Numbered from the stretch's first letter, positions 14,105 through 32,600 are shown. The stretch is DNA of 64,000 nucleotides from Prosthecobacter sp. (GCA_019186985.1 JABARQ010000008.1:106298-170297); one strand, 5' to 3'. The notes: generated by a model from the letters alone, not told the origin. Program-made: numbers and translations.

Positions 14105-14196
14105 TTTCCCTCCGGCTCAGGTTCCCTCGCCAGCATGGAGCACGGATTTAACGCTTGTTGAATGGCACGCCTGCCTGTGAAAGGATGCAATCGTTC

Positions 14197-15900
14197 ATGG
14201 TTGTCCAAAGCCGACATTTCTTCTCCAACAGCACGGAACTCTTCCCGGCCGAAGAGTTTCTTGAAGCTTCATTGCTGAAGATGAAAATGGCGCCATCCGA
14301 GGAACGCGGAGCCATTTTCACCCGTCCTGAGGTCGTTGACTTCATGCTTGATCTTGTCGGCTACACGCCAGACCGGCCTTTGTGGCAGCTCAGGCTGCTG
14401 GAGCCTTCATTTGGAGGTGGCGAGTTTCTTCTGAGGGCAGTCGAAAGGCTGCTCCAATCCGCCCAAACAGCCAAGATCGCCGCAAACGAGCTAGCCCCGG
14501 CTATCCGGGCGGTGGAACTGCATGGCGACACCTTTCAACAGACCCGCGAGACGCTTTCAAAGCTGCTCCGAGATCGCCAAGTGCCTGTGGCAACAAGTTC
14601 GATGCTGCTGGAGGCATGGTTGAAGAACGCTGATTTCCTATTGGAGCCTGATCGCGAGGCTTTCGATTTTGTGATCGGCAACCCGCCCTATGTCCGACAA
14701 GAGCTCATCCCCGCAGATCTGCTCGCGGAATACCGGCTGCGCTACAAGACGCTCTATGACCGTGCCGACCTTTATGTGCCGTTCATCGAAAAGTCGCTAA
14801 ATCTTTTGGAGGATGAGGGGCGGATGTGCTTCATCTGCTCCGACCGATGGATGAAGAACCGCTACGGCGGGCCGCTTCGCGCCCTCATTTCATCCGGCTA
14901 CTCGCTGCGCTATTATGTGGACATGGTGGGGACCGCCGCATTTCAGTCTGAAGTGACGGCGTATCCGGCGATCACGGTCATTCAGCGTGGAAAGTCGGAC
15001 GAGAAGCCGTTGCTGGCTCATCGGCCGGAAGTTTCGAGCGAGTCATTGCGCCAGCTTCACCAACTATTCACGGGGCCGGTTGCCAACTACAACGGCACTG
15101 TGAGCATGCTGGCTGCCAACCCGTGTGGAGATGAACCCTGGCTGCTGGAGTCCGATTCTCAGCCGTCTCTGGAACTCGTGCGCAGGCTCGAAGCCGCTTT
15201 TCCAACCTTGGAAGAGGCTGGATGCAACGTCGGGATCGGCGTGGCCACCGGTGCGGATAAGGTTTTCATCGCGCCGTATGATGAACTGGATGTCGAAGAA
15301 GAACGGAAGCTGCCGCTGGTGACGACGAGGGATATTCTAACGGGAGAGGTTCGGTGGAAAGGTCTCGGCGTGGTGAACCCGTTCGAGGAAGACGGCAGTC
15401 TGGCGGATTTTTCGGCCTACCCTCGTTTTGCCCGCTACATCAATCTCCACCGCGAGGTCTTGCAGAAGCGTCACTGTGCTCAAAAGGCGAATGGATCGTG
15501 GTATCGCACCATCGACCGCATCACGCCTGCACTCAGCGCCAAACCCAAGCTGCTCGTGCCAGACATCAAAGGCGAGGCAAACATCGTTCTGGAGAAGGGG
15601 CGGCTCTATCCTCATCACAATCTCTACTTTATCACCAGCGAACACTGGCCCCTGGAGGCGTTGCAGAGGGTTTTGAAATCCGGCATTGCTCGTCTCTTCG
15701 TCCGTGCCTACTCGACCAAGATGCGCGGCGGTTGTCTGCGCTTTCAAGCCCAGTATCTGCGCCGTATCCGGCTTCCTCATTGGAACATGATCGAGGCTTC
15801 CTTGCAGGGGAGGCTCTGTGATGAGAAACAGTCAGTGGAGCCGCTTCTGGCAGAAATCTACGACTTGTCCGCGGAAGACCTCCCCCACCTGCAATCCTGA
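14197..15900 (+). CDS. Type II N6-adenine DNA methyltransferase (XhoI/PaeR7I-type system)
   Basis: The 567-residue protein is an N6-adenine methyltransferase of the TaqI/Eco57I-like group. SAM-binding motif I reads [10 protein letters not shown] (residues 68-77) and catalytic motif IV is NPPY (162-165) within [16 protein letters not shown]-terminal half with no catalytic motif, about 330-567, should be the target-recognition domain. It modifies the recognition site and so protects host DNA from the partner nuclease next door. ATG 14197 is chosen because AAGGA (14181-14185) lies 11 bp upstream. Earlier in-frame starts are a TTG at 14155 and an ATG at 14185. The nuclease gene begins one base after the stop. 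CTCGAG specificity is inferred from the nuclease's family. Confidence 0.87.
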
Positions 15901-15901
15901 C

Positions 15902-16639
15902 ATGGCTCTTTTTCTCGCAAACCACTCCACCAAAGCCAGCAGGGCGATCAAAGGCTTCTGGAGCGGCCGTGATGAGGCCCGGCTCAAACAAGCCGCTGTC
16001 GGTAAAGGCGACCAAGGGGAGCGTTCGGCCGTGACAGCCGGGAAGAACATGAACGGCTTCATTTCCCTGATGGAAGAACTCGTCCGCGGAAATGGACTCA
16101 AATCCGCCGACATCCACCTTGATCGCCGTGTGCTTACACTGCCCGGATTCTTCCGTCCCACGAAGCTTTGGGACATGCTCGTCATCGATCGCGGCAGGCT
16201 GGTGGCAGCCTTGGAGTTCAAATCCCAGGTTGGGCCGTCGTTCGGAAACAACTGCAATAATCGGGCCGAGGAAGCCATCGGCACGGCACATGATTTTTGG
16301 ACCGCTTACCGAGAGCGTGCTTTCGGCGACGTGCCTCGCCCCTTTTTAGGCTGGCTGATGCTGGTGGAGGACGCTGAAGCCTCGCGAACGCCTGTTCGCG
16401 ATCACTCGCCTCACTTCCCGGTGTTTCCTGAGTTTCAAAACGCCTCGTACCTGGATCGCTACCACCTTCTTTGCAAAAAGTTGGTGCATGAGCAGCTTTA
16501 CACCTCCGCGACGGTCCTTGCGAGCCCTCGGTCTGCGATCAAGGACGGGCGGTTTTCCTGCCATGAGGACATGACCAGCCTCACCAGCTTTGTGTCGAGC
16601 TTTGCAGGCCACATTGCCATAGCGGCATCCGGGAGATGA
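15902..16639 (+). CDS. XhoI/PaeR7I-family type II restriction endonuclease
   Basis: The 245-residue protein matches the XhoI/PaeR7I endonuclease family, and PaeR7I is about the same length. The diagnostic stretch is [14 protein letters not shown] followed by NNRAEEAIG and WTAYRE. The likely PD-(D/E)XK catalytic residues are Asp91 in KLWDMLV and Glu105-Phe-Lys107. The family cuts CTCGAG after the first C. ATG 15902 is one base after the methyltransferase stop, so the pair is probably translationally coupled, methylase first, which favours protection before cutting. The open frame continues upstream into the methylase gene, but those codons are an overlap artefact. No control (C) protein gene is visible. 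Family assignment rests on remembered motifs, not a search. Confidence 0.85.
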
Positions 16640-16873
16640 AAAGGATTTCGCGTGAGAGTGGAGCCCGGATGAATTATTGCTTTCCAAGCAGTGAAGACTG
16701 CCTGGGCATTCAGGGCACGGAGGCAAGAATGCGAAGACCGCATGAACTCTCGGTAGCCTCCAGTCTGATTCTATTCCGGAAGGTGTTGATCAAGAAGCTA
16801 TAATCAGCCGGAGCCATGCCGGGATATTCATACATGCTGTTTACCCGCTCATTTGAGCAAGAACCAGCATTTT

Positions 16874-16941
16874 TGTTGCTTTGCACGCAAATGAGCCGCT
16901 AAAGTAACAAGATGACTCGAAAATCCCCGTGCAAAGCAACA
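16874..16941. repeat. 14-bp perfect inverted repeat
   Basis: TGTTGCTTTGCACG (16874-16887) and CGTGCAAAGCAACA (16928-16941) are perfect reverse complements separated by 40 nt. Position and symmetry suggest a protein-binding, recombination or RNA-hairpin element. No flanking gene explains it. Confidence 0.7.
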
Positions 16942-17041
16942 TTCTTGTCGGAGATAAAGCTGCTGACAAAACAACAAAGTTGTCGATAAATCACCTGTTC
17001 ATTCAACACGCCTAAAAAGGAAGAACGAGGGAGTGATCTGG

Positions 17042-17181
17042 GCCTCAAACAAGGCGAATGAAAGGGGCGTGAAGGAGCGTAGCATTGCTGCTGCGAAGCG
17101 CAGCGAATGACCCGTCATTCAAGCTCAATGAGCAAAGCAAGGCTAAGGTGGAATGAGGGTTTCAATCGCCTTGTTTGAGGC
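17042..17181. repeat. 22-bp near-perfect inverted repeat around a 96-nt core
   Basis: The arm at 17042-17063 (GCCTCAAACAAGGCG, then AATGAAA) is the reverse complement of the arm at 17160-17181, with one mismatch. The core includes GCTGCTGCGAAGCGCAGC, which is itself partly symmetric. It could be a small non-autonomous element (MITE-like), a structured RNA or a strong hairpin. It encodes no protein. Confidence 0.65.
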
Positions 17182-17509
17182 ATTTGGAGGATCGTTCTTC
17201 GCGGGATGGCTGGAGCCAGCCAAGGAGACGGCTGCGGGTGAACATGCGTTGCACGCCAACAGCCGTCTTGGATCCATGCCTGGCCCCCCGGCGTGTAGGG
17301 GCGCGGAGTGCAGGCGTGGGCGGAGCTGCACATGCCGTGAGTTCCAGATGATGCGGCGGTGCGTTTTCGCCAAGGGAATGAACAGTCCACTGCACCAAAC
17401 ATCCAAGCGCGCTGAGACATTGACACGCTTAGGCCGTTCGTTCATTTTCCGTGCCATTCACCTCCGTCCTCCGCTTGGACGTCGGTGAGTTTAAATGTTC
17501 GCCTCAATA

Positions 17510-18019
17510 ATGAAACGCATAGCATTCCTTGCCACGTTACTTCTGGCAGCGTGCAACGAGAATCAAACCGAGAAAACGCATACAGAAGCGCCTAAGATGA
17601 GCCAAACAATCCCAGGGAAGGCGATCACAATCGATAAGTTAGAGGCCATGTTCGAGAACATCTCCGAGACCACCGATTGGAATTTGAACGAGAAGATGCT
17701 GTGGGGATATTTCTTTACCCATCGTGAGCCGAAGGCGCTCGAACCGATTCGGGATGAACTTACCGCTGAGGGATATCGCTTTGTGGATTTATACCAGTCT
17801 GACGACGAGGATCAGGATGGCCCACCTCTTTGGTGGCTTCACGTCGAGCGAGAAGAGATTCATACTCCGCAGAGTTTAGATCAGCGGAATGACACTCTAT
17901 ACCTTCTCGCAGCTAGGCATGGCGTGGATTCCTACGACGGCATGGACATCGGCCCAATTCAAAACCAAGGCGAACAAGACGGTGGTGGACAACCGGCTAC
18001 CCGCCCCGAGACGAAATGA
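17510..18019 (+). CDS. RraB-like domain lipoprotein (cassette gene 1)
   Basis: The 169-residue protein starts with a lipoprotein signal: MKRIAFLATLLLAAC, lipobox LAAC with Cys15. The body resembles the ribonuclease E inhibitor RraB family: WGYFFTHREPKALEPIRDEL, AEGYRFVDLY, an acidic loop, a WWLHVER strand and the closing YDGMDIGPI motif. Classical RraB is a cytoplasmic regulator of RNase E. Here a lipid anchor would place the domain outside the cytoplasm, so the same role is doubtful. ATG 17510 is preferred over 17495 because it gives a clean signal peptide and lies 7 bp after the core GTTCGCC. The 3' end of the gene overlaps the attC-like site at 17969-18094. Confidence 0.68.
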   Translation: MKRIAFLATLLLAACNENQTEKTHTEAPKMSQTIPGKAITIDKLEAMFENISETTDWNLNEKMLWGYFFTHREPKALEPIRDELTAEGYRFVDLYQSDDEDQDGPPLWWLHVEREEIHTPQSLDQRNDTLYLLAARHGVDSYDGMDIGPIQNQGEQDGGGQPATRPETK

Positions 18020-18094
18020 CCCTCTTGGCTACAACCCTTTACCCTGTTGCGGAGTGGCGCTCCCGGTAGCCGGTGCCACACCTCGACGTTCGCC
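17969..18094. repeat. attC-like site 1
   Basis: The outer cores GGCGAAC (17969-17975) and GTTCGCC (18088-18094) are perfect reverse complements. The inner arms include CCGGCTACC (17993-18001) and GGTAGCCGG (18065-18073), also perfect. The site spans 126 bp, within the normal range for attC. It overlaps the end of cassette gene 1, a frequent arrangement in cassettes. Confidence 0.75.
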
Positions 18095-18115
18095 CAACTA
18101 ACAGCGCCATTCGCC

Positions 18116-18547
18116 ATGCAAAGAGCACATAGAGTCACATCGGTCGCGATTGCACTGCTACTTCTCATCTGCCCTTCTTCGCACGGGTCTCAGCCAGTTG
18201 TTTTATCCCTAGACTGGGAGCCAGCATGTGAGGGTAGTGCCATCACTGTGACATCTGATGCTGAGAAGACTATCATGGTTGAGGCTTTCGCTGCTCACTT
18301 TGCAGAATCACGAGAGTGGATATGCACCTACAGGGGTGGTGTTCTCGCCTCTGTTGTATATCGCCACTACAAGAACAGCCGAAAGCCTTCTGGAGAGGAG
18401 GGAGCCTTTACCACTCAGAGTGTATTGGATCGCATCGTAGTAGCAGCCATTACAGATGGTAGGCCGACGGACCTTCCAGACGACTTGAAGAAGGACTTTG
18501 ATGAGGTTATGCAGAAGGTAGCAGCAACGAAGAAAACCAAACCATGA
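18116..18547 (+). CDS. Hypothetical exported protein (cassette gene 2)
   Basis: The 143-residue product has a predicted signal peptide: a basic start, then VTSVAIALLLLICPSSHGSQ. About 115 mature residues follow, with two Cys and a Lys-rich end. I recognise no family. It is flanked by attC-like sites 1 and 2, and ATG 18116 is 22 bp after the right core of site 1, so it is read as a cassette gene. Codon use is less GC-biased than in the surrounding chromosome. The frame is open back to 18047, but that stretch runs into the attC site. Confidence 0.6.
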   Translation: MQRAHRVTSVAIALLLLICPSSHGSQPVVLSLDWEPACEGSAITVTSDAEKTIMVEAFAAHFAESREWICTYRGGVLASVVYRHYKNSRKPSGEEGAFTTQSVLDRIVVAAITDGRPTDLPDDLKKDFDEVMQKVAATKKTKP

Positions 18548-18564
18548 CCACAGACACGACCATC

Positions 18565-18703
18565 GGCCAAACGAGGGCGAACAAGGCGCTGGTGCCAACC
18601 GCCGGGGCTGCTGTGTCGGCCATGCTTTCTGTAACTTTAACCCGCCATCCCGTCTCGGAGCGCCACCCCGCCCCGGCGGTCGGCACAGCTTAGACGTTAG
18701 ACC
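18565..18703. repeat. attC-like site 2
   Basis: The outer cores GGCCAAAC (18565-18572) and GTTAGACC (18696-18703) pair with two mismatches; the right core fits the GTTRRRY consensus. The inner arms at 18592-18607 and 18671-18686 are 16-bp inverted repeats with one mismatch. The site spans 139 bp and includes GCGAACAAGGCGCTGG, shared in part with sites 1 and 3. Confidence 0.75.
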
Positions 18704-18730
18704 AACTGCAAACCATCCCTGACGCCACGA

Positions 18731-19180
18731 ATGGTCATTTACATAGTAGCCGCCATCGTGATCGTGCTGGCGGTCGCATGCCTTATACGATCACCTGGAC
18801 CGTATGCGCGAACCACGTTCGACGCTGGAGAGGACGGCACTGCCGCCGCCATCCACTTGCCGATCGAGCCACACGGTCTCGCGCTGTTTGTTGCCCCAGA
18901 TTGCACGCCAGGTTCCTCGAAGCTTATAGATGAGATGGTTGCAGTTTGGCCAGAGTTGTGGCCGAAGATAAAGTCATGCCTTGATGCCGAGATGAAGGAG
19001 TATGGTGTCGAGACCGTGTTGGGAAAAAACAACTTTATTGGATCGTTCGGCAGGACGACGCCTGAAGCTTATATGGGCGACAAAAGCGATATCATGATCC
19101 GTCTTGAGTTCGAGAAGCCGCCTCTCTGGGACTTTTTCATTCGCAGTTCGACCATTGTGCATTCACAGCCTGTATTCTAG
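18731..19180 (+). CDS. Hypothetical membrane-anchored protein (cassette gene 3)
   Basis: The 149-residue protein starts with one transmembrane segment (VIYIVAAIVIVLAVACLI), then a soluble domain of about 125 residues with mixed alpha/beta character and no recognised motif. It starts 28 bp after the right core of attC-like site 2 and ends 24 bp before site 3, so it has normal cassette geometry. Its function is unknown. Confidence 0.6.
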   Translation: MVIYIVAAIVIVLAVACLIRSPGPYARTTFDAGEDGTAAAIHLPIEPHGLALFVAPDCTPGSSKLIDEMVAVWPELWPKIKSCLDAEMKEYGVETVLGKNNFIGSFGRTTPEAYMGDKSDIMIRLEFEKPPLWDFFIRSSTIVHSQPVF

Positions 19181-19204
19181 CAAACACCATGAGCAAGATC
19201 ATCG

Positions 19205-19254
19205 GCCGAACGAGGACGAACCAGGCGCTGGAGGCGTCAGTTTGATCGTTCGGC
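19205..19254. repeat. attC-like site 3 (short)
   Basis: The cores GCCGAAC (19205-19211) and GTTCGGC (19248-19254) are perfect reverse complements 36 nt apart. The inside contains CGAACCAGGCGCTGG, like site 2. At 50 bp it is shorter than typical attC sites and may be minimal or trimmed. Confidence 0.6.
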
Positions 19255-19269
19255 TCAACCCAACACCGC

Positions 19270-19655
19270 ATGTTGCACCATCTGTCTTTCGCCGTCGCTG
19301 ATCTTGCGCGTTCTGGTGCCTTCTATGACGCCGCACTTGCTCCTCTTGGATGTGTCCGCGTATGGGAGGACGAGAGCGCCATCGGATACGGCTTCGCTGG
19401 TGGCGATGATAAGTTTGCCATCAAGCTTCGCCCTGGAAAAATTTCCGTTCCCGGCGAGGGCTTTCACGTCGCTTTTGCAGCACCATCCCGTGAGGCAGTG
19501 AAAGCCTTCTTTGATGCAGCACTTGGGCATGGCGGAAAGGACAACGGGGGGCGGGGCTTCATCCCGAATATGGCGATGACTACTACGCTGCCTTTGTTAT
19601 TGATCCAGACGGCTATCGTGTCGAGGCGGCAATCATTCAGGAGGGCGACGCATGA
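19270..19655 (+). pseudogene. VOC/glyoxalase-fold protein with a one-base frameshift (cassette gene 4)
   Basis: The N-terminal half reads as a VOC (glyoxalase/bleomycin-resistance) protein: MLHHLSFAVADLARSGAFYD, the metal-ligand-type His, and VWEDESAIGYGFAGG. After the G-run at 19546-19551 the frame is lost. One base off, the rest of the family reads clearly to TGA 19653-19655: GLHPEYGDDYYAAFVIDPDG then YRVEAAIIQEGDA. One base is therefore missing at the G-run, relative to an intact gene of about 128 codons. It could be a real inactivating mutation or a homopolymer sequencing error. The open frame running on to 19785 is an artefact. Members of this family bind or transform small molecules; the substrate is unknown. 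Confidence 0.7.
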
Positions 19656-19663
19656 TCATCACA

Positions 19664-19765
19664 CCAACCCAGAACGAAAAAAACGGACGCCATGTAACGG
19701 GTTGAAGGCTGCCTGTTCTGTCCGCATGTCCACTCCTCGCCGTCGCTTGATCCGAGTCGTTAGGC
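19664..19765. repeat. Possible attC-like site 4
   Basis: The right core GTTAGGC (19759-19765) fits GTTRRRY and is 16 bp before the next start codon. The left half is poorly matched, with ACCAAC near 19664. Short inner segments containing CGGAC and GTCCG could pair. The site may be degenerate; the left boundary is a guess. Confidence 0.4.
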
Positions 19766-19781
19766 GTTGCTCGCGCCACGC

Positions 19782-20249
19782 ATGAAAATGCCCATCAAGT
19801 TTTCTTTGATTGTCGTGCTGGCAATCGGGAGCATCTGGTCTCTCATTCATCTGCGGGCGCAGAGCTCACAGCGAAGACTCGCCGAGCTTCTGCCACGGAT
19901 TACGTCCATCACCCTTTACGATGTTCACGACCCCGCTGCCGATTCCAGCGCGCTCGCTTCTGCTGCTTCCGCTCATTTCCCGGTTGAGGCATTTCGACGC
20001 GCCTGCACATCGGCTGCCAGCGCGGGTGGAATTGCCCTTTGGAAGGGCTCATCTCTGGCGGTTATTACGTTGAGCGATGGCACGCAGCGTCAGGCGCGGT
20101 TCAGTTATCAGGGAGGCTTTTTCACGATTGACGGTTTCAGCGGTTATTTTGTTGTCCCGGGTTCGGAGTTTCAGCGCCTGCATCACCAGTTGATTCAGGA
20201 GCAGTTTGTCCCCAGACGCCATGAACGAAACAAGACCCGCAACGCCTAG
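19782..20249 (+). CDS. Hypothetical membrane-anchored protein (cassette gene 5)
   Basis: The 155-residue protein has an N-terminal membrane anchor (IKFSLIVVLAIGSIWSLIHL). A soluble domain follows that looks beta-rich, with TSITLYDVHDP, LAVITLSDGTQRQARFSYQG and FSGYFVVPGSEF. I know no family for it. ATG 19782 is chosen; ATG 19788 is equally possible. It is the last gene before the right island repeat, 52 bp downstream. No clear attC core follows it. Confidence 0.6.
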   Translation: MKMPIKFSLIVVLAIGSIWSLIHLRAQSSQRRLAELLPRITSITLYDVHDPAADSSALASAASAHFPVEAFRRACTSAASAGGIALWKGSSLAVITLSDGTQRQARFSYQGGFFTIDGFSGYFVVPGSEFQRLHHQLIQEQFVPRRHERNKTRNA

Positions 20250-20301
20250 CCATGCGCTGTAGCGAACAGCCGTCGCGAGGGCCATGAGACAAAGGCGGTT
20301 G

Positions 20302-20771: not shown

Positions 20772-20967
20772 GGCTTGGATTCAAACACCCGCACCGCCTT
20801 CAGTCACATCCTTTGTTGGGTGCACATGGAGGTTAGACCGGTTCTCAAAATGTCTGACTGATTCCCGTCGGCGGGGCGGCCGCATTGGCGGTGTCATTCA
20901 CTCGTCAGCTATTGTTCCAATAGCCTCCTCGCTCTTTCCTTGCCACTGAAGCAGCCGCGCTCGCCGG

Positions 20968-21262
20968 TCATTTCAGGCATTCTTTTTGAGAATCGGTCTG
21001 CCTGCGCCTGAACCGGACGATGCAGTTCCCCTTCAGCAGTTCCTTCACCTCGTGGGTTTTTTTCAAAGCCGGCCGCGGTGACCTCCGCTTCAAAGACCTC
21101 CTGCCCGGCGCGGACATGGTTCATGATGAAGTCGCTGGTCACCCCGGGGAATTCGTTTGAAGTCGATGAGCACCAGCTTGCCGCCCGGCTTCACGCTGGC
21201 CTCCTGGGCGGGCAGGCAGGTGACGAAGAGAAGGGCAAGGGCGGGAGCTTGGACATTTTCAT
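20968..21262 (-). pseudogene. Relic of a secreted class I SAM methyltransferase, internally deleted and frameshifted
   Basis: Reading the minus strand from ATG 21262 gives, after frame correction, a signal-peptide-like start ending LLFVTCLPAQEASVKPG. This runs directly into the C-terminal part of a methyltransferase: KPGGKLVLIDFKRIP, VTSDFIMNHVRAGQEVFEAE, VTAAGFEK and a final VKELLKGN with an Arg-rich end at TGA 20968. The whole SAM-binding core that should lie between is absent, as if deleted between two KPG-encoding stretches. Extra bases occur in a C-run near 21151 and an A-run near 21062. Non-functionality is clear from the deletion alone. The intact ancestor is inferred from the family pattern. 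Confidence 0.6.
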
Positions 21263-29200: not shown

Positions 29201-29417
29201 CGTCCTGACAGACATGATGATGCCCCTCATGGACGGGGCCTCGATGATCCAGGCGCTCCGCCGGATGGACCCCGGGGTGCGCATCATCGCCTCAAGCGGG
29301 CTCAATGTCGCAGGCATGGTCAGCCGGGCGGCCGAGGCCGGGGTCCACACCTTCCTCGCCAAGCCATACACGACGGAGGCGCTGCTGAAGACGCTGCATC
29401 GCGTCCTTCATGGCTGA
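26232..29417 (+). CDS. REC-GAF-PAS hybrid histidine kinase with C-terminal receiver
   Basis: The 1061-residue cytoplasmic protein reads in order as follows. An N-terminal receiver has LIVDDKEENLYYLQ and Asp in VSDLLMPVMDGY. A coiled-coil and a weak GAF-like region come next (about 195-315), then three PAS domains (about 320-435, 440-560 and 565-675). The kinase core has phospho-His in LAGGIAHDLNNVLAP, N-box LLNLCVNARDAM and glycine boxes DTGTGM and GKGTGLGLS. A second receiver lies at about 940-1060 (ILLVDDEASIRKT; Asp in IVLTDMMMPLMDG). Two receivers around one kinase suggest a phosphorelay hub. It is the last gene of the operon and has no membrane span. Confidence 0.9.
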   Translation: MNRILIVDDKEENLYYLQALFSGLGWEVVTARHGAEALVKARQKPPQIAVSDLLMPVMDGYTLLCHWKADASLKKIPFVVYTATYTETADEELAMNLGADAFILKPCEPDDFIRRLEGVAESVRRQGPAVPRGSTLEDYSLHQGYSETLIRKLEEKTLQLGEANRALREEIAESEKARRDNKKLNDELTERVKELRLLYDVSRLLRDTEMPLAEVARQIVDMLPQAMQRSAGVAVRLRLGAVEAASSGFRPAAWSLLAEFVTSDGVENQIEVVWTDEDATGEEPFMKEEHDMLDSVAEMLRVYLDQRLLTWHLEIERTRLVTAQKVANMGSWETELGTFAVSWSEQTHLIFETDPRTFQPTHQRFLELVHPEDREAVDAAFARSISLKEPQECAHRILLPDGRVKHVIERWQVFLEGHEAPSVAIGTTQDVTERVQAELELKRTSNLLTAVADGLPDAVFVKDLEGRYLLFNKGAASFVGRPVEDVLGRDDTALFGPEDARLVMENDREVIVSGRAITTEEVLTAAGVTRTYLATKAPYRDDQGRVIGIIGISSDITQRKLAEQKLREQATLLDKAQEAILVRGLDHRILYWNKSAERLYGWQADEVLGRSIRELLYKDPAAFMTATQAALEKGEWVGEIQQYNREGRPLTIEGHWTLVRDEQGRPQSILAINTDITERRKLEQQVLRAQRLDSIGTLAGGIAHDLNNVLAPILMSVELLRSQERDPRRQDILATMEASARRGADMVRQVLSFARGVEGSHAPVQTEQLLADLEKIANETFLKTIRVVRVVPADVWNVMGDATQLHQVLLNLCVNARDAMPKGGTLTLSAANDWVDEAAAARMVGLRPGPYVHIQVQDTGTGMSPEVLERIFEPFFTTKEVGKGTGLGLSTSLAIVQSHGGFLRVESEPGRGAVFHVHLPAHAVSEPQEASSEHEPPQGRGETILLVDDEASIRKTTGQALEACGYQVLTAGDGAEALAVYSEKGGDIDIVLTDMMMPLMDGASMIQALRRMDPGVRIIASSGLNVAGMVSRAAEAGVHTFLAKPYTTEALLKTLHRVLHG

Positions 29418-29437
29418 GGGGAATAGGCCTGCGCCGG

Positions 29438-29662
29438 TCAGCGGCAGCCGCAGCCTCCGCAGCCACCCTGTCCGCCTCCCTTTCTGCCGCAGGTGCTGAT
29501 GCCGAAGGGCGCATACAGCGGGCAGAAGCGGATGAAGGCGGTGAGCAGCGGCACGGCGCCGATGGCTCCGAGCCAGGAGTGACTGACGATGCCGTAGGCG
29601 ATGAGGCCAAGGCCGGCGAGGATTCGCAGGGTGCGGTCGATGGGGCCGATGTTCGGTTTCAT
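29438..29662 (-). CDS. DUF2892 (YgaP-like) small membrane protein with Cys/Gly-rich tail
   Basis: The 74-residue protein begins MKPNIGPIDRTLRILAGLGL, typical of the DUF2892 family, with two transmembrane segments and the conserved FCPLYAPFG motif. Its C-terminus, CGRKGGGQGGCGGCGCR, is rich in Cys and Gly and could bind metal or thiol-reactive species. It is the last gene of the minus-strand efflux operon, 12 bp after the RND pump. DUF2892 proteins often accompany sulfide, arsenic or metal stress genes. The function is unproven. Confidence 0.8.
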   Translation of the reverse strand: MKPNIGPIDRTLRILAGLGLIAYGIVSHSWLGAIGAVPLLTAFIRFCPLYAPFGISTCGRKGGGQGGCGGCGCR

Positions 29663-29674
29663 GGTGGGTTCCGG

Positions 29675-32600
29675 TTAGCTTGCGGATTCGGGGCGGGAAT
29701 GCCTGTTCGCCATGTAATACAACACCGGCACGGCCATGCGGCTGATGAACAGGCTTGCGATCTCGCCCGCCATGAGCGCGATGGCGAGGCCTTGGAAGAT
29801 GGGGTCGGCAAGGATCACGGCGGCTCCGGCGACGACGGCCATCGCCGTGAGAAGCATCGGGCGGAACCTGACAGCCCCCGCGTCAATGACCGCCTCGCCC
29901 AGCGGCATGCCTTCATGCACGCGCAGCTCGATGAAGTCGACGAGGATGATCGAGTTGCGCACCACGATGCCGCCTCCGGCCATGAAGCCGATCATGCTGG
30001 TGGCGGTGAAGAAGGCGTCGAGCATTCCATGCGCTGGCAGGATGCCCACCAGGGAGAACGGAATCGCCACCATGACGATCACCGGCGTGAGGAAGCTGCG
30101 GAACCAGCCGACCATCAGCACGTAGATGAGGATCAGGCACGCGCCGAAGGCAGCCCCCAGGTCCCGGAAGACCTCGAGGGTGATGTGCCACTCGCCGTCC
30201 CATTTCATCGAAGGCTCGCTGTCACTGAACGGCATCGCCGCATTGAGGACCTTCAGCCTCGCGCCGCTGCCGCCAAACTCGCGCGTGTCGAGCCTGCTGA
30301 GCGCCTCGTTCATCTGGAAGATGGCGTACACGGGGCTTTCAACCACGCCCGCCACGTCGCCGATGACATAGGTCACGGGCATGAGGTTCTTGTGGTAGCG
30401 GCTTTTTTCGACGGTGACATGCTCCACCCTGGCCAGTTCACGCAAGGGCACGAGCGGCGGTCCGCCGGCCCCGGGTTCGGGCAGCGCGTTCGCATCACCG
30501 GAGCGCACGCGCAGGGCCAGAAGCTCCTCGGGCGTGGTCTTGGCGCTGCGGGGCAGTTCGAGGCGGATGTGCACGTCCTCCTTCTCCGCAGGCTGGTGCA
30601 GAAGGTCGACGTTTTCGCCGTCCACGGCGATCTTGAGCGTCTGCGAGATCGTGGCTGCGCTGATGCCGTGCAGGGCGGCCTTTTCCTTGTCGATGACAAA
30701 GCGGGCCTTCTGCTGATCGGCCTCGATGTACCAGTCCACATCGACGACACCCGGCGTGGATTTGAAGATCGTCTTCACTTTCTCAGCCAGCCTGAGCCGC
30801 GCATCGTCATCCGGCCCATAAATCTCCGCGACAAGCGTCTGCAGCACCGGCGGTCCCGGCGGCACTTCCGCGATGGCGACGCGTGCCCCTTGTCTCTCCG
30901 CAATCGCCGCCACGGCCGGACGCACGCGTTTGGCGATGTCGTGGCTCTGCGCCTTGCGTTCGTGCTTGCCGGCAAGGTTCACCTGGATGTCCGCCACGTT
31001 CGCGCCGCGGCGCATGAAATAATGACGCACGAGGCCGTTGAAGTTGTAGGGCGAGGCGACGCCGGCATACACCTGGCAGTCCGTGACCTCCGGCTCCTGG
31101 CGGATCGCCGCGGCCATCTCGCGGGCGACAGCGGCCGTCTTTTCCAGGGACGAGCCTTCCGGCATGTTCAGGATCACCTGGAACTCGCTCTTGTTGTCGA
31201 AGGGCAGCATCTTCACCTTCACCCAGCCGGCGCCGACCGTCGCCATGCTGCCGAGCAGCAGCCCGGTGATGCCGATGAGGAAGGCCCATCGCCAGCCGAC
31301 GTGATGAATGAGCGGGCCCATCATCCGGCGGTAGAGCTTCGTGAAAAAGTCCTCGGGATGCTCGCTGGCGTTGTGGTGAGCGAGGTCAGCGGCGGATGCC
31401 CTGCCTTCAGTCAGCCTGGAATACTTCCTCCCCCAGCGGAGAATGCGGATTGAAGCCCAGGGCGTGACGATGAACGCGATGAGCAGGGACCAGAACATCG
31501 CCGCGCTCGCACCGATGGGAATCGGCCTCATGTAAGGCCCCATGAGGCCGCCCACAAACGCCATCGGCAGCACCGCGGCGATCACGGCAAACGTGGCGAG
31601 GATGGTCGGATTGCCCACCTCACCCACCGCCTCCACGGCGATGGCGCTCCAGTTCCGGCCCTTGTTCTGCGGCAGGTGAAAGTGGCGCACGATGTTCTCG
31701 ACGACCACGATGGCGTCATCCACGAGGATGCCGATGCTGAAGATGAGGGCGAAGAGGGTGATGCGGTTCAGCGTGAAGCCGTAAAGGTAGAAGACCAGCA
31801 GCGTGAGGGCCAGCGTGGCCGGAATGGCCACGGCGACGATGCCGCTCTCCCTCCAGCCAAGCGTGAGCCAGATCAGGACCGCCACGCTGAAGACGGCGAT
31901 GCCCATGTGCAGCAGCAGCTCGTCCGACTTCTCCGCCGCCGTCTCGCCATAGTTGCGCGTGATGCTCACGCCCACATCAGCAGGAATGACGCTGCCCTTC
32001 AGCAGCCCTACCTTGTGCAGCACTTCATCCGCCACGCTGATCGCGTTTGCGCCAGGACGTTTGGCGATGCTGAGCGTCACGGCGGGTTCGTCATTCGCTT
32101 TGGAGCCGTGAAAGACGTATTGGGTCGGCTCCTCGCCACCATCGACGATCTCGGCGACCTCCCGCAGGTACACGGGACGCCCGCTGAAGACGCCGATGAC
32201 CACGTTGCCGGCATCTTCGGCGGTTTTGAGGAAGGCGCCGGTTTCGACAAGCACCTCGTTGTTTCCCGTGGTCAGTCCGCCGGCGCGAAACTGGCGGTTC
32301 GCCTGCTGAAGCATCGGCACGAGGCCGGCGGGGCTCAGGTTGCGGCTGGCCAGCTTCACGGGGTCAAGCATCACGCGCACGGCGCGACGTGACCCGCCAA
32401 GCAGCGTTGTCTCGGCCACCAGCGGCACTTGTTTGATCGATTCATCCACCTGCGCGGCAAGGCGGCGCAGCGTGAGGTGGTCGTAGCGGGCGCTGTGGAA
32501 GGTGAGCGCGAGGATGGGCACGTCATCGATGCTCTTCGGCTTGATGACCGGCATCGTGACGCCCATCGGGATGCGGTCGAAGTTCGAGCGCAGCTTCTCG

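Follow-up and report, generated by a model that had tools for sequence, protein, structure and literature searches.

Can a cassette array that stands without an integrase still be filled from elsewhere in the genome, or is it only what remains of an integron? The question is raised by a 64,000-nucleotide stretch of the Prosthecobacter sp. draft genome GCA_019186985.1 (JABARQ010000008.1:106298-170297), hereafter the window, which is positions 106298-170297 of contig 11 in a 5.88-Mb assembly of 55 contigs that is 96% complete. A reading made from the sequence alone (the sequence-only reading) had described an integrase-less, CALIN-type array of gene cassettes starting at 17497. CALIN, a term of Cury et al., stands for cluster of attC sites lacking an integron integrase (PMC8618304, PMC9024848). 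We confirm that the array is an integrase-less attC cassette array and, by definition, a CALIN: the minimum of two attC sites is exceeded, with three recognised by the model and further ones by eye, and no integron integrase lies beside it. It tells more than a plain CALIN would, having an attI platform of its own and belonging to a set of cassette-sharing platforms in one genome. We consider it likely that it is a satellite integron array that kept attI and lost the integrase gene intI, and that the integrase (IntI) encoded on contig 26 would fill it and other remote attI sites in trans.

The array starts at 16820. Its layout is an attI platform, then a 500-bp cassette that lacks an open reading frame (ORF), then five gene cassettes, all on the plus strand. 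To score the attC sites we used a covariance model (R1) whose training set was 12 attC sites from elsewhere in the genome (two other contigs), with window sequence excluded, and scanned both strands of the whole window with filters off. The fold z values below refer to the single-stranded DNA fold of the bottom strand.

17377-17503, plus strand: attC of the ORF-less cassette, recognised from the sequence; fold z -1.96
17969-18094, plus strand: attC 1; R1 E 1.5e-6, fold z -3.54
18576-18702, plus strand: attC 2; R1 E 4.6e-7, fold z -1.88
19205-19254, plus strand: attC 3, short, a 50-nt hairpin; R1 E 0.11, fold z -2.98
19673-19765, plus strand: attC 4, of the 93-bp type common in the family, with a degenerate R'' (left core); R1 E 3e-7
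20230-20277, plus strand: attC 5, left half only, cut off; 85% identity to one attC of the contig-26 array

The four best R1 matches in the window are array sites, all on the plus strand, and the next match has an E of 0.44; this ranking is beyond chance. Against the whole genome, the sites at 17969, 18576 and 19673 pass at E ≤ 1.4e-4, and the 20 matches with E ≤ 0.01 fall in three arrays (contigs 26, 15 and 11), apart from one site each on contigs 7 and 5. The covariance check proposed in the sequence-only reading therefore bore it out, with three sites at E ≤ 1.5e-6 in the window from a model not trained on them; of the sites it had singled out (17969, 18565 and 19205), the first and the second, the latter placed by R1 at 18576, are significant and that at 19205 is marginal (E 0.11). 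Nor is the gene order conserved in relatives as far as the right flank tells, which has no long DNA match there. A search through that flank for the empty site of the locus in relatives matched only short repeats and a conserved part of a kinase.

The inverted cores that had been described between the small genes are present in the sequence: GGCGAAC at 17969 with GTTCGCC at 18088 in attC 1, GGCGAAC at 18576 with GTTAGAC at 18696 in attC 2, and GCCGAAC at 19205 with GTTCGGC at 19248 in attC 3. In the attC of the ORF-less cassette, R'' is AATGAAC, complementary to the GTTCATT expected on the excised circle. The second site is of the same type as the first attC of contigs 26 and 15 (92% identity to the contig-26 site) and shares with them an identical 28-mer that occurs at contigs 11, 15 and 26 only. 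Farther along, attC 3 is shortened and probably decayed, and the bottom strand of attC 4 gives a fold z of +1.73, with no stable fold. The distal end of the array looks old, since attC 3 is shortened, attC 4 folds poorly and attC 5 is truncated. Rfam gave no match over the whole window, nor over the array at a loose threshold. A hand-written scan for cores and arms found the main sites and was abandoned for the covariance model because it also gave about one match per 5.5 kb of shuffled sequence; its candidate attC at 17020-17200 was rejected, being the inverted repeat inside the ORF-less cassette.

The cassettes delimited by these sites are as follows.

16998-17497, plus strand: first cassette, 500 bp, no convincing ORF, joined at the attI G|TT
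17498-18088, plus strand: cassette 1; gene 17510-18019, lipoprotein-like, RraB domain (PF06877, 4.1e-14)
18089-18696, plus strand: cassette 2; gene 18116-18547, unknown protein with a signal-like N-terminus
18697-19248, plus strand: cassette 3; gene 18731-19180, unknown protein with an N-terminal hydrophobic segment
19249-19759, plus strand: cassette 4; glyoxalase/bleomycin-resistance-like gene from 19270 (PF00903, 4e-6)
19760-20277, plus strand: cassette 5; gene 19782-20249 (unknown protein) and the left half of an attC

Start codons (ATG at 17510, 18116, 18731, 19270 and 19782) lie 6-28 bp past the right cores; the close spacing reported earlier thus holds, with its lower limit of 7 bp moved to 6. 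The ORF-less cassette carries an internal 22-nt inverted repeat (17042-17063 and 17160-17181). The gene of cassette 1 is single copy in the genome, that of cassette 2 has nothing above cut-off in Pfam or NCBIfam, and that of cassette 3 has no family match in either. The cassette 4 gene is frameshifted near 19551, where alignment with a homologue on contig 7 shows one base fewer in a run of G; the deletion may be either a real frameshift or a sequencing error.

What sets this locus apart lies to the left of 17497, where the sequence-only reading had placed the start of the array. It missed the attI at 16820-16999 and the ORF-less cassette, and was incomplete because the array retains the one and opens with the other.

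16820-16999, plus strand: attI platform, with the crossover triplet G|TT at 16997-16999
16820-16831, minus strand: intI remnant, the first four codons ATG AAT ATC CCG, matching the first codons of the contig-26 intI

Over 181 bp the window attI is 93.4% identical to the attI that stands beside an intact intI on contig 26. The alignment runs through attI to the G|TT crossover and diverges after it, so that the window site is homologous to an intI-linked attI and has its first cassette joined at G|TT, with intI itself gone. No intI sequence was found near the window attI beyond the four codons. No sigma-70-like promoter directed into the array was detected in the attI region, and one weak candidate faces the opposite way. 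A deletion probably reduced intI to its first four codons and left attI behind.

An ordinary CALIN might instead have formed by off-target insertion at a non-attI site, in which case the attI-like sequence would be no platform. Off-target insertion is one of the published routes to CALINs, along with intI loss and rearrangement (PMC8618304), and the genome has what looks like an example: on contig 7 (L029 8673-10048) the ORF-less cassette is inserted together with a single gene cassette, whose attC is 93 bp long, at ...CTCAT|GTT, with no attI match, as in an insertion of the attG type. For the window we find such an origin very improbable and largely refuted by the attI alignment, which extends from the attached intI codons to the crossover base immediately left of the first cassette.

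If the window platform lost its integrase, what could have filled it? Local tblastn detected no IntI similarity adjoining the array, and the search for intI elsewhere that had been proposed along with the CALIN reading found it on contig 26. There, at 29371-30345 on the minus strand, lies the only intact integron integrase gene of the genome, encoding 338 amino acids with no stops. Its product is the sole protein of the genome above the TIGR02249 cut-off (376.6 bits against 265), and it also matches PF00589 and PF13495. The nearest solved relative is Vibrio cholerae IntI4 (2a3v; 7e-70 over residues 17-336), in an alignment that covers the integron-specific insert and the HTLRH...Y motifs; the protein is thus a tyrosine recombinase with the additional domain specific to integrons. 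Named relatives are remote, the best at 48% identity. Next to this intI come an attI and 12 or more cassettes, the attC of most being 93 bp long, so contig 26 carries a complete integron, with intI adjoining attI and cassettes, which the window does not.

Two further attI copies without intI occur on contigs 15 and 17, 83-92% identical to each other and to that of contig 26. The contig-17 copy reads CTGCTC and has lost the GTT. The first cassettes of contigs 15 and 26 are identical over 622 of 622 bp, whereas their neighbouring attI sites are 84.0% identical and their arrays diverge after the R' core. The presence of an identical cassette beside such divergent attI sites therefore suggests recent insertion by IntI at both, at contig 15 without a neighbouring intI. 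We regard recent integrase-mediated insertion, which at contig 15 would have occurred in trans, as the best explanation. The ORF-less first cassette of the window likewise recurs with different flanks and with ends at G|TT, in copies that are 99.2% identical inside the contig-26 array and 97.8% identical on contig 7. The window cassette thus argues for past use of its platform, and the contig-15 cassette for recent use of such sites. Mechanistically, the contig-26 IntI may excise cassettes as folded, single-stranded attC hairpins and insert them at the G|TT of remote attI sites; attI-proximal cassettes would then turn over as older distal ones decay. A lone strong attC (70 bits) also lies near the end of contig 5 (L169 1287-1380).

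The same sharing might have come about with no action of an integrase, if segmental duplication or homologous recombination moved attI and cassettes between loci. Some block movement or block inheritance of the platform is indeed suggested by what stands left of attI.

16716-16803, plus strand: 3' tail of a DUF1080-type gene (3-keto-disaccharide hydrolase), by homology to L033 and L027; in frame, ...SSLILFRKVLIKKL and stop

The contig-15 attI has this tail on its left too, and the attI in G030, one of the related genomes considered below, has a nearly full gene there; the tail appears to be a hitch-hiking remnant common to all three. The full gene of the source genome lies on contig 3 without an attI, and the tail and attI therefore probably came to contigs 11 and 15 as a unit. 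Full-length copies in relatives belong to PF06439 (1.3e-33). Copying of whole segments is nevertheless disfavoured as the source of the shared cassettes, because equal divergence would be expected left of and inside the cassette, whereas cassettes 97.8-100% identical stand beside attI sites that are 84-93% identical or absent, and the changes fall at or near G|TT. We judge transfer of the cassettes in this way unlikely. The 95 bp to the left of attI had been a candidate part of a mobile attI unit and was rejected, being the 3' end of the DUF1080-type gene.

Shared cassettes of 500-622 bp act as repeats, and in a draft of 55 contigs they could also have produced chimeric joins at the repeated attI and cassette sequences. 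That the pattern is such an artefact of assembly is hardly credible. Divergence is 6-17% among the attI copies and about 1-3% among the ORF-less copies, every copy sits well away from contig ends, and other genomes show the same arrangement. A swap past the shared cassette could, moreover, exchange the arrays and not take the cassette away from either attI.

Platforms of this kind are not confined to one genome. Among 68 genomes of the family, IntI scores above cut-off in 24 and R1-type attC sites occur in 60; in 18 genomes the window query has a similar stretch, which includes the attI part in about 15 and the DUF1080 tail only in the rest. The attI parts have a common core, GTCGGAGATAAAGCTGCTGACAAAACAAC...TTGTCGATAAATCAC-CTG|TT, followed by unrelated sequence. 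We found no intact intI beside the attI-like sites of relatives in the DNA examined, which on that side exceeds 1.2 kb for most and is only 92 bp for L034. Remnants of intI stand beside some of them, with 43 codons in L050, 23 in L035 and 20 in L040, and because these differ in length, intI appears to have been lost repeatedly, at different points, with attI retained. Survival of attI after deletion of intI would explain why intI-less attI sites recur in the genus. Relatives also provide an empty-site comparison for an intI-less platform: the gene order in G030 is recQ, DUF1080, attI, two cassettes and the trigger-factor gene (tig), and in G023, G033 and G045 it is recQ-DUF1080-tig, with attI absent. 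The 93-bp attC type is often spread over many contigs in the family, including genomes without detectable intI (for example G045, with 17 sites and 30 contigs).

The repeated loss of intI can also be read in another way, namely that the window holds a dead relic, once a complete integron, whose intI was deleted and whose array decays with no service in trans. The reduction of intI to four codons, the short attC 3 and poorly folding attC 4, the frameshifted cassette gene, and the truncation of intI at several lengths in relatives are all consistent with this. On the other side, the first two gene attC sites of the window are well kept, and one cassette at the intI-linked attI has a 100% identical counterpart at the intI-less attI on contig 15, so intI-less attI sites in the source genome were probably used recently. 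A relic is therefore possible, though we think it doubtful.

Service in trans by the contig-26 IntI remains the explanation that we favour, and several observations weigh against it. About 4 of 503 bp differ between the first cassette of the window and its contig-26 copy, so that insertion in the window was not very recent; together with the apparently dead distal attC sites, this means that the window platform could by now be a relic. The attI-like sites of L051 and L053 read CTGCTC, with GTT lost, and intI is missing altogether from several genomes that have attI-like sites; some of the platforms are thus probably dead. Breakpoints between contigs 15 and 26 can be placed only to about 16 bp on the left (end of attI) and 7 bp on the right (core), where the bases are identical, and this leaves some room for gene conversion. 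A draft in 55 contigs and 96% complete may also lack another intI. Present-day action of IntI at the window attI is thus something we infer.

How does the locus compare with known systems? Like other CALINs, it has at least two attC sites, cassettes in the same orientation, no adjacent intI, and fewer cassettes than the complete integron of its genome; unlike them by definition, it retains an attI platform. The contig-26 integron resembles the sedentary chromosomal integrons of the Vibrio superintegron type, with intI, attI, at least 12 cassettes and near-uniform 93-bp attC sites that recur across the family. However, the source genome has four dispersed attI platforms and attC sites on contigs 5 and 7 in place of one large array. 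According to the available text of PMC12444791, Xanthomonas has integrons in which intI was lost or truncated and the arrays were kept, and CALINs that lie apart from intI at several places in the chromosome. An intact intI there occurs at one locus, and the same text does not describe the remote CALINs as having attI, whereas the genome studied here has attI at several loci, two of them with an identical cassette. The contig-7 copy resembles attG insertion, which IntI mediates at genomic sites other than attI and attC (mentioned in PMC12901181 and PMC12444791); in the window and on contigs 15 and 17 the site used is attI.

It is accepted in principle that cassettes of CALINs can be mobilised in trans (PMC9668308, PMC12444791). 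In the open-access literature we found no description of several intI-less attI platforms served by one integrase, which is weak evidence of absence. The class is already known, and the variant here is one with attI retained and apparently served in trans. CALINs are roughly as frequent as complete integrons, with counts of 2961 and 2760 (PMC9024848). The usual view takes them for degraded integrons or products of off-target insertion, but attI outside class 1 is skipped by standard searches; in IntegronFinder 2 the attI search is not a default because attI is poorly described outside that class (PMC9024848). Should our explanation be correct, cassettes could be captured at several places at once, the loss of intI at a locus would not end its integron or the cassette traffic there, and surveys would overestimate the share of CALINs that are dead. 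More tentatively still, and with somewhat less than even confidence, we suggest a distributed integron in the family, in which one chromosomal IntI serves several intI-less attI sites and many CALINs are live satellites under selection. The genus offers natural replicates with and without intI in which the use of attI in trans could be tested.

Directly left of the attI platform, at 14155-16639, is an XhoI-like restriction-modification pair.

14155-15900, plus strand: N6-adenine DNA methyltransferase, left neighbour, not a cassette gene (Pfam Eco57I 2.2e-24, N6_Mtase 2e-6)
15902-16639, plus strand: XhoI-family restriction endonuclease, left neighbour, not a cassette gene (PF04555 XhoI, 3.7e-91)

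To the right, an element of about 166 bp resembling a miniature inverted-repeat transposable element (20834-21000) has imperfect inverted ends of 27 nt and is present in many copies in the genus at 80-94% identity, several of them in the source genome. It is followed by a stretch of about 190 bp (21005-21194) that is repeated in many genomes of the genus at 77-86% identity.

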